Positions 29,292 to 34,986 of a stretch of DNA of 64,000 nucleotides are shown here, in pieces (the first letter of the stretch is position 1; each line of letters starts with the position of its first letter). Position numbers and translations under genes: made by a program. The notes under the pieces were generated by a model. It did no database searches. It was given only the letters and a program-made list of their open reading frames with translations, and was not told the origin of the DNA. Source of the DNA: Nitrosomonas sp. (GTDB taxonomy: Bacteria > Pseudomonadota > Gammaproteobacteria > Burkholderiales > Nitrosomonadaceae); contig JAMWZR010000008.1 of assembly GCA_024282035.1 (NCBI GenBank), positions 29,156-93,155 of the forward strand, read 5' to 3'.

Positions 29292-29972
29292 ATGAAATCA
29301 AGCAATACAAAGATAAATATTCTGGTGGCTGAAAGTATAGAGTTGGTCCGTATCGGATTGCGGTCTCTATTCAGTGAACACGCATCGTTTCATCTGGTTG
29401 CTGAAACAGCTTATATGATGGAGCTGCTTAATCTGGCCAAATTACATAAACCGGATGTCGTAATCTTAGATTTGCAATTGAGCGATGGCAACAATGTTGC
29501 AGAATCGATTGCTCGGCTGACGTATGCAAGTCCTGGTAGCAGGGTGCTAGCTTTCTCACAGAATAATTCTGAAAACGCCTATTTGCAGGCATTGCATTCC
29601 GGGGCTGCTGGGATCATTAGTAAAGGACATTCCTGTAAGATGATACTCAAGGCGATTAATGCCATTGCATCGGATGAAGGTTGGTTTGATCGTCCGATGG
29701 TTCGGTCGACAAGAGTGTCGAATAGAGTTCACAATAAACTGGTCAGTGTACAAAATGATGATGTGTTAATTGATTCTTCAAAATTGAGCAACTGTGAACG
29801 CCGCGTTGCTGGCCTAGCAAGTCAAGGGTTGTCCGCAAAGGAAATTGGCGCAAGGCTATTGATATCAGAAAAGACGGTGCGTAACCAATTATCTGTAATA
29901 TATAAAAAAATGGGTGTTAAGAAACAAGTGGAACTGTGCCTGAAGGCTCATGAATACAAATATTTTCAGTGA
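29292..29972 (+). CDS. Response regulator with LuxR HTH, first of a tandem pair
   Basis: 226 residues: receiver domain (about 8-125) and LuxR-type helix-turn-helix (about 160-222, LSNCERRVAGLASQGLSAKE, LISEKTVRNQLSVIYKKM). The phospho-acceptor Asp (VVILDLQLS), switch Ser (LAFSQNN) and Lys (IISKGHS) are kept. The usual acidic pair (DD) near the N-terminus is replaced by Glu-Ser (LVAESIELVRIG), so Mg binding and phosphorylation may be altered. The neighbouring gene at 30227 is a close paralogue with the same substitution. No histidine kinase gene is adjacent. Confidence 0.88.
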   Translation: MKSSNTKINILVAESIELVRIGLRSLFSEHASFHLVAETAYMMELLNLAKLHKPDVVILDLQLSDGNNVAESIARLTYASPGSRVLAFSQNNSENAYLQALHSGAAGIISKGHSCKMILKAINAIASDEGWFDRPMVRSTRVSNRVHNKLVSVQNDDVLIDSSKLSNCERRVAGLASQGLSAKEIGARLLISEKTVRNQLSVIYKKMGVKKQVELCLKAHEYKYFQ

Positions 29973-30226: not shown

Positions 30227-30955
30227 ATGGTTGAACGATCTCAAAACAAAATTCGTATTTTGGTTGCGGAAAGCTTCGAACTGGTTCGTATCGGATTACG
30301 TTCCTTGTTTGAAAATCATGCTTCCATCCGGCTTGTCGCTGATACCAGTTGTATTGAAGAGCTCATCAATCTGACTCTACAGCACAAACCGGATGTGATT
30401 CTGGTCGATCTGCAATTAAACAATGGTAATTGTGTTGGCCATATTTCCAAATTACTGAACGCCTGCCCGCAAAGTAAAGTTCTGGCTTTCTCACACCAGA
30501 ATAATGAAACTATCTATCTACAAACTTTTCGTGCCGGTGCAGTAGGTATTATTAGTAAGCATCATTCTTCTGAATTGTTGTTAAAAGCCATCTATGCCAT
30601 TCATGCTGGTCAGGTTTGGTATGACCGACATATTACCAAGCTGTTGTGGCAAGCCCAATTTGATCATCACCCGGCACAGGTTGAAGCGTTGCCTGACGCA
30701 CAATCCATACCGCAACCTAAATTGAGTGATAGTGAGCGCCATATTGCTTTTTTGGCATGCAGAGGGCTTTCAGCCAAGCAAATTAGTACACAATTATTTG
30801 TAACGGAAAAGACAGTCAGAAATCAGTTGTCTGTAATTTATAAAAAGATTGGTGTAAAGAAACAAATCGAATTGTGCTTGAAAGCACCACTCTATAACTA
30901 CTTCAGGGATTCCTACAATACCGGGATGTTTAACCCGGAAGATTCCGAGAAATAG
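30227..30955 (+). CDS. Response regulator with LuxR HTH, second of a tandem pair
   Basis: 242 residues with the same architecture as the gene at 29292: receiver domain then LuxR HTH (LSDSERHIAFLACRGLSAKQ, FVTEKTVRNQLSVIYKKI). The shared LVAES-ELVRIGLRSLF start, with Glu-Ser in place of the acidic pair, and the near-identical recognition helix show a recent tandem duplication, and both may read the same operator. Phospho-Asp (ILVDLQLN), Ser (AFSHQNN) and Lys (ISKHHSS) are kept. It lies 229 bases before the copper oxidase start at 31185 and is the best candidate for its regulator. Confidence 0.88.
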   Translation: MVERSQNKIRILVAESFELVRIGLRSLFENHASIRLVADTSCIEELINLTLQHKPDVILVDLQLNNGNCVGHISKLLNACPQSKVLAFSHQNNETIYLQTFRAGAVGIISKHHSSELLLKAIYAIHAGQVWYDRHITKLLWQAQFDHHPAQVEALPDAQSIPQPKLSDSERHIAFLACRGLSAKQISTQLFVTEKTVRNQLSVIYKKIGVKKQIELCLKAPLYNYFRDSYNTGMFNPEDSEK

Positions 30956-31184: not shown

Positions 31185-32186
31185 ATGCTGTTTCAATCAA
31201 ACCAGTTGCCTGGTGCACTAGAACACGAAGAAGGTTCTAGCGCTGCGCAACCAGTAATGAACCAGCCTTCTCTGAAGCAAAAGCTTCTGAGGCTTGGTAT
31301 GGGTGCGATGGTGTCTTTCCTGATGGTTCAAAGCTGTTTCGCTGCTCAACACGTCATTTCACTGACTGCAGAAGAGACACGTGATGATGGTTTCGGTAAC
31401 AAATTGCTGGCTTACAAAATGGTGAGCCATCATATTGATGGTCATAATGTAACCGACCGCTACAGCCCAGACGCAACGATTCCAGGGCCGACGATCGAGC
31501 TGACTGAAGGCGACAAAGTCAAAATATCCATTTTCAATGCGATACCTAATAACAATGTTGCGGTAGCTGGTATCAGCAAACAGGTCAGTATTCACGTGCA
31601 TGGCGTTCACTACAATATTTTGAGTGATGGTACGTTGAAAGTGATCAACCAAGTCGATGACGAAGGTGCAGGTGCTGGCCTAGTACAAACTTATTCTGTA
31701 TATGAATATGAATGGGATGTTGCACCCGGAACAGCAGGTACATGGGCATATCATGATCACAATTTTGAAACCCATAACGGTTCAGAACACAGAGGTTTAT
31801 TCGGTGCCATCATTGTCAACCCTGTTGGTGGCCCAACTTTTGCCAGGGAATATGTGCTGTATTTAGGTGACGATGCATTCTGGGGTATGGAAATCGTTGG
31901 TCATACCAAGAAGCAAACCAAACATGGCCCGAATCCTACCTTATCTGCCAAAGCAGGAACTCGAGTACGTTTCCATCTGATTGCCTTGGGAACAGACATT
32001 CACACATTCAGACTGAATGGCTATCAATGGTTTGATCCAGGTACAAACAATCTTATCAGTCAAGTTGCGATTGGTCCGCTCGAAAAGCATGTGTTCAGCG
32101 TGAAGGCACTGCAAGATGCGCAGTATGTCGATACAAACCTGACAAACAGGCTGCTGGGTATGAGAGGTAAATTCGATGTTCAATAA
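31185..32186 (+). CDS. Two-domain multicopper-oxidase-like protein lacking C-terminal copper ligands
   Basis: 333-residue exported protein. The ATG at 31185 has a strong ribosome site (GGAGGGG, 8 bases ahead); a 30-residue N-region precedes a signal peptide (about 31-53, ending SCFA). Two cupredoxin domains follow. Domain 1 keeps both N-terminal multicopper-oxidase His pairs: H137/H139 (IHVHG) and H190/H192 (YHDH). In domain 2 the equivalents are lost: of HxxHxH only H273 remains (IHTFRLN), and the HCHxxxH site reads V315-D316-T317 and N321, although the axial Met (M326) position is kept. Alone it should build neither a type 1 nor a full trinuclear site. The next gene has the reverse pattern, so the two proteins may form one enzyme. 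Known two-domain oxidases form the trinuclear site between subunits. Confidence 0.85.
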   Translation: MLFQSNQLPGALEHEEGSSAAQPVMNQPSLKQKLLRLGMGAMVSFLMVQSCFAAQHVISLTAEETRDDGFGNKLLAYKMVSHHIDGHNVTDRYSPDATIPGPTIELTEGDKVKISIFNAIPNNNVAVAGISKQVSIHVHGVHYNILSDGTLKVINQVDDEGAGAGLVQTYSVYEYEWDVAPGTAGTWAYHDHNFETHNGSEHRGLFGAIIVNPVGGPTFAREYVLYLGDDAFWGMEIVGHTKKQTKHGPNPTLSAKAGTRVRFHLIALGTDIHTFRLNGYQWFDPGTNNLISQVAIGPLEKHVFSVKALQDAQYVDTNLTNRLLGMRGKFDVQ

Positions 32187-32223
32187 AATAGAGAACAAGC
32201 ACCTAATTGATAAGGATAGTGCA

Positions 32224-34986
32224 ATGAACAATAAGAATTCATCGGGTACCAGAAAACAGGCACTAATGATCCTGTTTTTTGTCGCTACATTTTTGACCTC
32301 TGCGATAGCATTTGCTGCGGTTCATAGTTTTAATCTGACTGCTACAACATTGCCAAATGGTCAATTGGCTTATGCATTGGGAGCGAATGAGGCCGTTATT
32401 CCCGGACCGGCGCTGTTTGTAAAGGAAGGCGATACCCTCAAGGTTTCGCTGAAAAACGATACCAGTGCCGCTGTTAGTTTCAAGGTTCCAGGTTTGTCTG
32501 TAGCAAATCCTGCTAAGGTTAATCCGGGTCAAACCAAAAATTTTACGGTACAAGCCAGCAAGGCAGGTACCTATGTTTATCATGGCGACATGAACGGTAA
32601 GGAATTGCTGGGATTGTTTGGTGCGCTGGTGGTGGATAAAGCCACGGGGCCAGTAGATCGCTATGTAGAAGACAATGGTAAAATCGTTTCTGTGAGCAGA
32701 AATAATATCGACAAACAGTTCGTTCTGTTCATGGTCGGATCTACTTTTTGGGGTACGGAAGTCGCTGCGGACGGCACGCAAAAACCACTGTGGGCCAATC
32801 CTCATCCCGGTGCAGTTGAAAACGACATCGTGCGTTTCCACATTCTGTCGATTGGCCCCGGCCATACCTTCCACTTGCATGCTCATCGCTGGTTGAAGAA
32901 AGACACACAGGAAGTGATCGATACCAAATTGCTGGCTGAAGGTACGGATACGCATTCATTTACCATCAAAGCCGGAACAGGTGTTGGTGCAGGTGCTTGG
33001 CAGTATCATTGTCATCTGATTGCGCACATGGAAGCAGGCATGCATGGCAACTTCAAGGTGGAAGCTTTGGGAGGAACTGGAACCAGTGTCGTAGGTGCAT
33101 CGCCTTACGGCAGGATTTTGCTGGGGCCGAAAGATGAGCCTGGCTTGGTGACCTTTGAAGTGAGTGACGAGCCTGCAAGCTGGTTTAGAAGCGCACGTGG
33201 CGATGCCATCGTGGAACTGAGCAAGCCAAGTGCTACCGGCTCACCACTCCAAGGTGCAGACATCAAGACCAAGTCTCTGGATGTGATTGTTCCCGGCAGC
33301 AGTGTGAATTTCATCATGTCGGACACCAATGGCGTGCATACCATCAGTTCCCTGTTATGGCCAAGCGGGGCTGAACACATGCCCTATGATCAAAGCAGTG
33401 CATACCGTGGCGGGGGATTTGTCACCTTACATACGCCAGGGCTGTATGTCTTTACCTGTAAGGTTCATCCGTACATGTTTGGTGCCGTGATTGTCGACGA
33501 CCCTGCTACTGAAGGTCTTGATTTGGGTAATCCTGCCAGAAACTTCACAATCGATCTGGTTACCGGCATCAAAGATTTGCCAACCAGCAGCGATTTGGCA
33601 GTGCGTTTGCTGAAAACTTTCTTTATTGCCACAGCACCTGATAACTGGCAAGACTACTCATCGGGATTGTGGAATGTCAGATTCCCGACTTTACCAGTGA
33701 GAATTTCCGGTGCGCCATTTGGAAATGTTCAAGATGGAGGGTTGGCTGCACCACTGTCGATTTTGAATGTTAACAATCAAGCTTTGACTGTTGGAGCTGC
33801 TCCAGCAACACCTGGTGTTGGTGAGGTGTGGGTCAATACCCAGTTTGAAAAAACTGCCGGAAAATACAAACCCGGAACCTCGACTGTTGTGGATACCACC
33901 ACATGGAAAGTTAAACGTAAGGTTGCGTTGCCGCAAATCAACAACAACAATCCGCACAATATGTGGTCAAGCCGTGACCAGTCGGTGATTTACCAGACAC
34001 AGTGGTTTGATAACAAGTTCTCGATGATCGACCGTGAAACGGGCTCGCTGATCAAGAACATTACCGTGGGTTATTCACCTTCGCACGTGGTGACTTTGCC
34101 AACCAATGATGACATTACTATTGCTGTCAACGGTGAGAACGGTGTCATGGTCATTCCGGCAGGCACGACGAATGTCACCAAAATGATGCCAACACAGGCA
34201 CAAGGCCATATTTCTGCCAATCCGCATGGTCACTGGATCAGTGCTGATGGTAAGAAAATCGTGACGCCAAACATCAATACCGATGATATCGGTATCTATG
34301 GTGCCAACGGTGGTATCCAGGCACGGACACCAACCGGGAACAATGCACCAGGCGCGCATCCGATCGCGATCGGTATGATGCCGGATTCCAGCAAGATTTA
34401 TGCGGCGAATCTGTTGCACCATTCCATGACCGTTTTGAACGGAAATAATGGTGCACTTTTGAAAACTATTAACCTGATTGCAGATTACAACCCCATCGAT
34501 GGTACCTTTGCTGATAATGATGCAAATGGCGAAATTGCAGTAGGAGTATTGCCAATCCAGTCACCAGTATCTCCAGATGGCAAAGCAGTTGTTGTTGCCG
34601 CAACAGGTGGTCAGATCGTCATCATTGATACAGCTACAGATGAAATCGTCAAGATGCTGCCTTGCGACCCAGGTTGTCATGGCGCCAACTTTGGTGCAAA
34701 AGCTGGCGGCGGGTATTACGCTTATGTCACGACGAAATTTGGTAACAGACTGACTGTGGTTGATATCGATCCAGATAATAATGGCAATATCAGTGATGCA
34801 GCTATCGCGGGTTATGTCTCTTTGGTTGATGATGTCAATACGGCCAAGGATGATAACGTCAGCGGTTTACCTGGTTTTGGTGGCCAGGGTGTGCTGGCTG
34901 TGCCTAACGTTTATAACGGCTGGGTACAAAATGTTCCTGAAATTTGGGCGCTTACCGATAAACAAAGAAGTCCAATTGGAAAGTAA
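32224..34986 (+). CDS. Multicopper-oxidase-like protein fused to a third cupredoxin domain and a beta-propeller
   Basis: 920 residues from the ATG at 32224 (an ATG at 32176 would overlap the previous gene by 11 bases). A signal peptide covers about 10-31. Cupredoxin domain 1 lacks the N-terminal ligands: the HxH pair is K87/P89, and the second pair keeps only H120 (YHGD). Domain 2 is complete: H214, H217, H219 (HTFHLH) and H262-C263-H264, H268, M273 (HCHxxxHxxxxM), giving type 1 copper and half a trinuclear site. A third cupredoxin domain (about 305-425) has its own type 1 set: H372, C412, H415, M418 (CKVHPYM). Residues about 535-905 form a YVTN-like propeller with several His motifs (NPHN, NPHGHW, GAHP, LLHHS, CHG). 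It lies 37 bases after its partner and is followed by a strong terminator. The substrate is unknown; periplasmic location is inferred. Confidence 0.87.
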   Translation: MNNKNSSGTRKQALMILFFVATFLTSAIAFAAVHSFNLTATTLPNGQLAYALGANEAVIPGPALFVKEGDTLKVSLKNDTSAAVSFKVPGLSVANPAKVNPGQTKNFTVQASKAGTYVYHGDMNGKELLGLFGALVVDKATGPVDRYVEDNGKIVSVSRNNIDKQFVLFMVGSTFWGTEVAADGTQKPLWANPHPGAVENDIVRFHILSIGPGHTFHLHAHRWLKKDTQEVIDTKLLAEGTDTHSFTIKAGTGVGAGAWQYHCHLIAHMEAGMHGNFKVEALGGTGTSVVGASPYGRILLGPKDEPGLVTFEVSDEPASWFRSARGDAIVELSKPSATGSPLQGADIKTKSLDVIVPGSSVNFIMSDTNGVHTISSLLWPSGAEHMPYDQSSAYRGGGFVTLHTPGLYVFTCKVHPYMFGAVIVDDPATEGLDLGNPARNFTIDLVTGIKDLPTSSDLAVRLLKTFFIATAPDNWQDYSSGLWNVRFPTLPVRISGAPFGNVQDGGLAAPLSILNVNNQALTVGAAPATPGVGEVWVNTQFEKTAGKYKPGTSTVVDTTTWKVKRKVALPQINNNNPHNMWSSRDQSVIYQTQWFDNKFSMIDRETGSLIKNITVGYSPSHVVTLPTNDDITIAVNGENGVMVIPAGTTNVTKMMPTQAQGHISANPHGHWISADGKKIVTPNINTDDIGIYGANGGIQARTPTGNNAPGAHPIAIGMMPDSSKIYAANLLHHSMTVLNGNNGALLKTINLIADYNPIDGTFADNDANGEIAVGVLPIQSPVSPDGKAVVVAATGGQIVIIDTATDEIVKMLPCDPGCHGANFGAKAGGGYYAYVTTKFGNRLTVVDIDPDNNGNISDAAIAGYVSLVDDVNTAKDDNVSGLPGFGGQGVLAVPNVYNGWVQNVPEIWALTDKQRSPIGK

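Follow-up and report, generated by a model that had tools for sequence, protein, structure and literature searches.

The window, a stretch of 64,000 nucleotides from a Nitrosomonas sp. genome (assembly GCA_024282035.1, contig JAMWZR010000008.1), encodes two adjacent proteins, designated A and B here, that resemble two-domain multicopper oxidases. The genes lie head to tail with 37 bases between them. The eight histidines of a trinuclear copper site are split between the two products, four in A and the other four in B, and neither chain holds the complete set. Coordinates below are positions in the window, and family, genus, order, class and phylum are the taxa of the window's genome unless stated otherwise.

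The A/B locus and its divided copper ligands

The features of the pair are as follows.

31185..32186, + strand: protein A, 333 amino acids, two-domain multicopper oxidase with domain 1 intact and domain 2 without copper ligands
A residues ~25-53: signal-peptide-like stretch, recognized by eye
31344..31823, + strand: A domain 1, residues 54-213, with the trinuclear half-site H137/H139 (31593-31601) and H190/H192 (31752-31760)
31860..32183, + strand: A domain 2, residues 226-333, ligands lost at 276, 278, 315, 316, 317 and 321, H273 and M326 kept
32224..34986, + strand: protein B, 920 amino acids, with a degenerate oxidase domain 1, an intact oxidase domain 2, a cupredoxin domain 3 and a propeller
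32317..32637, + strand: B domain 1, residues 32-138, copper ligands lost at 87, 89 and 122, position 120 variable
32719..33063, + strand: B domain 2, residues 166-280, with type-1 ligands H214, C263, H268 and M273 and the trinuclear half H217, H219, H262 and H264
33139..33513, + strand: B domain 3, cupredoxin, residues ~306-430, with H372, C412, H415 and M418 (CKVHPYM)
33811..34938, + strand: B propeller, YVTN-type, residues ~530-905, matching Pfam Lactonase and PDB 1l0q

The start codon of A is backed by homologues that align from residue 1, and at least 97% of the aligned B proteins keep Met1. A preliminary description, made from the sequence of the window, had drawn attention to complementary ligand loss in the two proteins, and the residues it named are all correct: H137, H139, H190, H192, R276, N278, V315-D316-T317 and N321 in A, and K87, P89, Y119-H120-G121-D122, H214/H217/H219, H262-C263-H264, H268 and M273 in B. 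The gapless C-terminal alignment it reported is also recovered, between the last 21 residues of A and B 260-280. Its statement that the losses are substitutions and not truncation holds in part. Substitutions are indeed present, but short deletions also occur near the lost sites: in the alignment, five residues are absent from A just upstream of the former HCH, and in domain 1 of B about 14 are missing behind the lost HxH and another five behind the second pair.

Alignment of A with the first 300 residues of B gives a score of 209, and the best of 200 shuffles scores 59. Since this score is far above the shuffled maximum, and since the ligand pattern is kept across the family, the likeness of A and B is not due to chance.

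Conservation and joint inheritance of A and B

Conservation was assessed in 59 distinct A and 57 distinct full-length B proteins, window included. Outside the window, the sample comprised 67 frames of A and 71 of B; 36 named loci and parts of other family genomes contributed to it. Rows were left out if they were identical to others, if A had <300 amino acids, or if B had <850 amino acids or did not cover residues 60-850; short paralogues and copies that were cut or frame-broken were also removed. Two A rows whose frames break in domain 2 (L072 and L111) were kept among the 59.

In A, H137, H139, H142, H190 and H192 are invariant (59/59), and the columns of the lost ligands (276, 278, 315, 316, 317 and 321) vary. 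Histidine is found at 276, 278, 315 and 321 in none of the 59 proteins and at 316 and 317 in one each, and cysteine at 316 is likewise absent throughout. The pattern in B is the reverse, with all eight ligands of domain 2 (H214, H217, H219, H262, C263, H264, H268 and M273) invariant in 57/57 and columns 87, 89, 120 and 122 varying; at one of these lost-histidine columns, H120 is present in 34 of the 57. The type-1 copper site of domain 2 follows the same division. It is present in B (57/57) and lost in A, where the cysteine is absent from all 59 proteins and the second type-1 histidine is also found in 0/59, and remnants of it persist as the first histidine of the HTFxLx motif (H273, 52/59) and the axial methionine (M326, 57/59). 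Constraint on the retained half-sites has not been relaxed, as these are invariant although A diverges to about 50% identity. That the retained ligands are invariant while the lost positions drift argues for an ancient complementarity that selection maintains. Mean pairwise identity in A is 0.63 for domain 1 versus 0.59 for domain 2, and in B 0.71 for domain 2 versus 0.57 for domain 1; in both proteins, conservation is higher in the domain that bears the ligands.

The distribution of the two genes was followed in 125 family genomes, with A scored at E <= 1e-40 and B by its oxidase part alone (residues 32-285) at the same threshold. A is present in 72 genomes, and the B oxidase part in 71, all of them within those 72. 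According to the listed places, the two genes adjoin each other, on a single contig and in the same orientation, in 71 of the 72 A genomes; in the draft genome G335 they lie on different contigs. Without A, the B oxidase part was met in these genomes only as one broken remnant. Whole pairs have been duplicated together within one genome, as seen in the A-B-A-B tandem arrays at L075 and L079 (G359:C193 and G325:C155), and G347 carries an extra truncated copy of A (L111) next to an A/B pair. The co-occurrence that the preliminary description proposed to look for is therefore evident in 71 of 72 A genomes, and the exceptions are broken or cut genes. The named records nearest to A are from Nitrosomonas (92% for L058), with those of Nitrosospira and Nitrosovibrio further off. 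Across the order, A (E <= 1e-40) was found in 6 of 300 genomes, all six of the same genus. A was not detected in 53 of the 125 family genomes, some of which are incomplete, and so is not essential for ammonia oxidation. In the window's own assembly (G000) no match to PF02461, an ammonia monooxygenase subunit, was found; G063 and G107, of the same genus, have one, and the missing match is probably an assembly gap.

Distances were compared in 59 full-length pairs, picked for lying on one strand with -120 to 400 bases between the genes; since they were picked in this way, these pairs are in themselves no proof of adjacency. The A and B distances correlate with r = 0.92 (53 distinct pairs). In a tree of 87 oxidases, A forms one clade (100/99), B one clade (100/100) and the unsplit relatives described below one clade (99/99). 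The branching within A and B is largely mirrored, several genomes' second copies included, with small differences remaining, and the co-variation anticipated from the sequence of the window is thus present in both distances and trees. Partial correlations of domain distances were also computed for ten domain pairs after removal of propeller divergence. The highest is that between A domain 1 and B domain 2 (A1-B2, 0.76) and the lowest that between B domains 1 and 2 (0.47); A1-B2 ranks first in 235 of 300 column bootstraps and in 259 of 300 half-samples.

Two putative regulatory genes lie upstream of the pair.

29292..29972, + strand: orphan response regulator (REC plus LuxR-type helix-turn-helix) upstream of the A/B pair
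30227..30955, + strand: second response regulator, paralogous to the first, directly upstream of A

Members of this response-regulator cluster are found on the same strand within 2.5 kb upstream in 32 of the 54 A copies with room for them, or in 22 of 55 by direct similarity. As they stand upstream of only 32 of these 54 copies, the response regulators are not constant partners of the pair and were rejected as part of the A/B system.

Unsplit relatives and the origin of the pair

A class-wide profile search of 369 genomes (E <= 1e-12) revealed two carriers of a related oxidase beyond the window's genome and one congener. In the family of the first carrier, a close relative is present in 10 of 121 genomes (E <= 1.1e-91), and four more give weak matches. 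All 13 genomes tested of that family, including three without a close relative, have a match to PF02461 (pmoA/amoA), and on this basis these genomes are regarded as methanotrophic. The second carrier, G437, has the unsplit form (L121, G437:C17) and no PF02461 match. A further unsplit relative is encoded on the Methylocystis rosea plasmid NZ_CP044330.1 (L135), where the annotation reads 'multicopper oxidase domain-containing protein' followed by 'hypothetical protein'. A phylum-wide look at 398 genomes (E <= 1e-30) returned only the window's genome and one congener.

The unsplit set thus numbers 12, made up of ten genomes of the pmoA-bearing family, G437 and the Methylocystis plasmid (L120-L130, L135). 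By eye, all 12 oxidases hold every ligand of both halves (HxH, HDH, HTFHLH or HSFHLH, and HCHxxxHxxxxM), and in all 12 the next gene encodes a separate cupredoxin-propeller protein. This protein is complete at ~610 amino acids in L120, L121 and L135; the other nine end with the fetched stretch. Eleven of these cupredoxin-propellers align with B from residue ~270-306 onward, at 41-43% identity. The propellers of Methylocystis and L120 share 69% identity, which suggests horizontal transfer. In both L135 (by annotation) and L121 (by eye), a sigma-70 family gene precedes the unsplit operon, and the Methylocystis plasmid copy is near folE and an nnrS gene.

The domain order along the methanotroph operon is the same as in A/B, and these are the closest relatives found. 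The operon differs from A/B in that its oxidase gene is single and intact and its cupredoxin-propeller gene stands apart, with no split and no fusion. Such relatives bear out the earlier proposal that the pair descends from a homo-oligomeric two-domain oxidase. The ancestor would have been an operon of one intact, homo-oligomeric two-domain oxidase and a cupredoxin-propeller gene. The oxidase gene may then have been duplicated; one duplicate would have joined the cupredoxin-propeller gene in a fusion, and the two would have lost opposite half-sites. Duplication, fusion and reciprocal loss make up the simplest history, and most likely the true direction of change, as judged from the sequences of present-day forms.

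A group of proteins of ~1000 amino acids that match A domain 1 (L094-L099) was considered as a source of intact ancestors and rejected, as by eye their oxidase domains are followed by a kelch/galactose-oxidase-like part. They represent a second large oxidase of the family, with a His-rich linker.

A candidate heteromeric oxidase

For both A and B, the top-ranking PDB entries by sequence are two-domain laccases. Models of the mature chains made with AlphaFold (pLDDT 88.6 for A and 87.5 for B) match the small laccases SLAC and Ssl1 with a target TM of about 0.7 over about 300 alignment columns, and two cupredoxin oxidase domains are predicted in both chains. In type B two-domain multicopper oxidases (the small laccases SLAC, Ssl1 and CjMCO), to which A and B are alike in their two cupredoxin domains and best PDB matches, type-1 copper is in domain 2; this holds for B. 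In two-domain oxidases, adjacent monomers share the trinuclear site, one supplying histidines from its domain 1 and the next from its domain 2 (PMC13151041, PMC3192119); the known enzymes are homotrimers in which every contact between two monomers holds an active site (PMC3192119). The placing of this site between neighbouring subunits in the preliminary description is in line with PMC13151041.

Each chain of the Nitrosomonas pair has lost one half-site, so no homomer of A or of B can hold a complete site. The trinuclear cluster can be accommodated only where A domain 1 meets B domain 2, and for this reason A and B are read as one heteromeric oxidase. Most likely, they are subunits of a single exported, obligately heteromeric enzyme, with complex formation, copper binding, activity and export all predicted properties. 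The trinuclear site would be formed by H137, H139, H190 and H192 of A domain 1 together with H217, H219, H262 and H264 of B domain 2, and only at this A1/B2 contact. The type-1 copper would sit beside it in B (H214, C263, H268 and M273), and the contact between B domain 1 and A domain 2 would be structural and copper-free. Electrons would probably reach the type-1 site from cupredoxin domain 3 of B, from a substrate near the propeller, or from both, and O2 would be reduced at the trinuclear site.

The C-terminal part of B is itself well conserved. The ligands of domain 3 (H372, C412, H415 and M418) are invariant in 57/57 full-length B proteins and form a set which we take to be amicyanin-like; its NCBIfam matches, both below cut-off, are to pseudoazurin (9.2e-05) and amicyanin (0.01). 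In the propeller, histidines 578, 621, 668, 670, 712 and 819 are present in 57/57 and His 733, Cys 814 and Cys 818 in 56/57, and a CDPGCH (CxxxCH) motif is encoded at 34663-34680. Five of the conserved histidines and both cysteines also occur in the four paralogues aligned, two of the unsplit type and two short. By eye, several of the histidines are at the equivalent place of successive blades (PxH...SPDG), and this blade-wise placement suggests a metal site in the propeller channel; together with the CxxxCH motif, the conserved histidines could possibly form a metal or atypical haem site. Many family genomes also encode a paralogue of the C-terminal part of B, with cupredoxin and propeller in ~610 amino acids (1974-3794 in L107; 2061-3893 in L108, G000:C85). 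At L108, no oxidase gene was seen next to this short paralogue among six frames of >=120 amino acids in 5.8 kb, inspected by eye.

A number of observations weigh against a heteromeric oxidase kept intact as a unit. In G310, A is accompanied by a B that begins at residue ~252, with domain 1 and most of domain 2 missing. The named record L070 (6909-8975), whose truncated B is without the HTFHLH segment and was counted outside the 57, has the same architecture as G310:C17, in which a signal peptide runs out of frame into the HCH segment; this truncated B is a broken gene or an assembly fault. Among genomes without A, G370 carries a B-like oxidase remnant with two stops, G356 a piece of B at a contig end and G372 a B remnant of residues 587-916. 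In A, conservation of the ligand-free domain 2 falls only a little below that of domain 1. The A1-B2 correlation, the highest overall, is highest in none of three subclades, so domain co-variation lends weak support to this contact. The tree of 87 oxidases does not fix the branching order among the A, B and unsplit groups, and an older duplication may therefore have given rise to the pair. Finally, just one of the three contacts in a three-membered ring can be A-to-B, which would leave one site per trimer. An even ring such as A2B2, with every second contact A-to-B, is an alternative arrangement.

A and B could instead be retired oxidases that work apart, A in copper binding or as a scaffold, and B in electron transfer or substrate binding through its type-1 centres and propeller, with no trinuclear site formed. 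Taken singly, each protein is without half the ligands of the trinuclear site. Domain 3 gives B a second cupredoxin centre, which is intact, many genomes encode a propeller paralogue that has no oxidase domains, and one genome pairs A with a B missing most of its oxidase part. Yet H217, H219, H262 and H264 of B and the four histidines of A have no known role outside a trinuclear site and are invariant in 57/57 and 59/59, and A occurs without the B oxidase part in one of 72 genomes only, where B is broken; we regard retirement as unlikely. Far less probable still is that the half-sites are completed by other oxidases of the cell, such as a 331-residue two-domain oxidase (G000:C72), with A and B acting as modifiers. 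The genome does have five PF07732 matches beyond A and B, but the adjacency, co-inheritance and largely mirrored trees of A and B tell against partners elsewhere.

A different question is what the A:B heteromer might oxidize. Its donor may be no simple phenol or metal ion; the histidine ring of the propeller would then be a second metal site in a redox enzyme of nitrogen compounds, with A:B as the electron sink. The six invariant histidines and C814/C818 of the propeller, their partial retention (five histidines, both cysteines) in the unsplit-type and short paralogues, the predominance of ammonia and methane oxidizers among the carriers and the nnrS gene near the Methylocystis copy are all consistent with such a role. 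However, histidine at that blade position occurs in other YVTN propellers, A is dispensable for ammonia oxidation to judge from the 53 family genomes in which it was not detected, and G437 has the unsplit form with no PF02461 match, and the idea is accordingly given a low probability. A doubtful elaboration of the heteromeric oxidase, of similar standing, combines a ring of broken symmetry, in which only A-to-B contacts are catalytic, with a second metal active site formed by the B cupredoxin and the His-lined propeller; the substrate could be NO, hydroxylamine or a copper species, oxidized with O2 reduction at the A:B site.

On its sequence, the A/B pair is a variation on the type B two-domain multicopper oxidase theme, and neither chain alone fits that definition, which places a complete ligand set in one chain. 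Unlike the known two-domain oxidases, A and B have each lost one half-site, and B adds a C-terminal cupredoxin and propeller. Ceruloplasmin and the three-domain laccases are multi-domain proteins in which a single inter-domain contact holds the trinuclear site, inside one fused chain. The A/B site, unlike those of these enzymes, would lie between two gene products.

The fungal heterodimeric laccase-like enzymes POXA3 and NLAC resemble the pair in combining an oxidase with a second kind of subunit. In the available text of PMC10741624, that subunit is a small protein whose function is described as unknown; it raises stability and activity, and is not credited there with copper ligands. No oxidase with a trinuclear site common to two gene products was found in the accessible part of the openly licensed literature. 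If the proposed structure is correct, A:B would be the first multicopper oxidase in that body of literature, as far as it is accessible, with an O2-reducing copper cluster made by two gene products after reciprocal loss in duplicated subunits. The passage from homo-oligomeric enzyme to obligate heteromer could then be studied in a natural test case, and since methanotrophs still possess the unsplit state, the two forms can be compared side by side. The pair would also concern the ammonia and methane oxidizers themselves, whose copper redox enzymes are only partly assigned.

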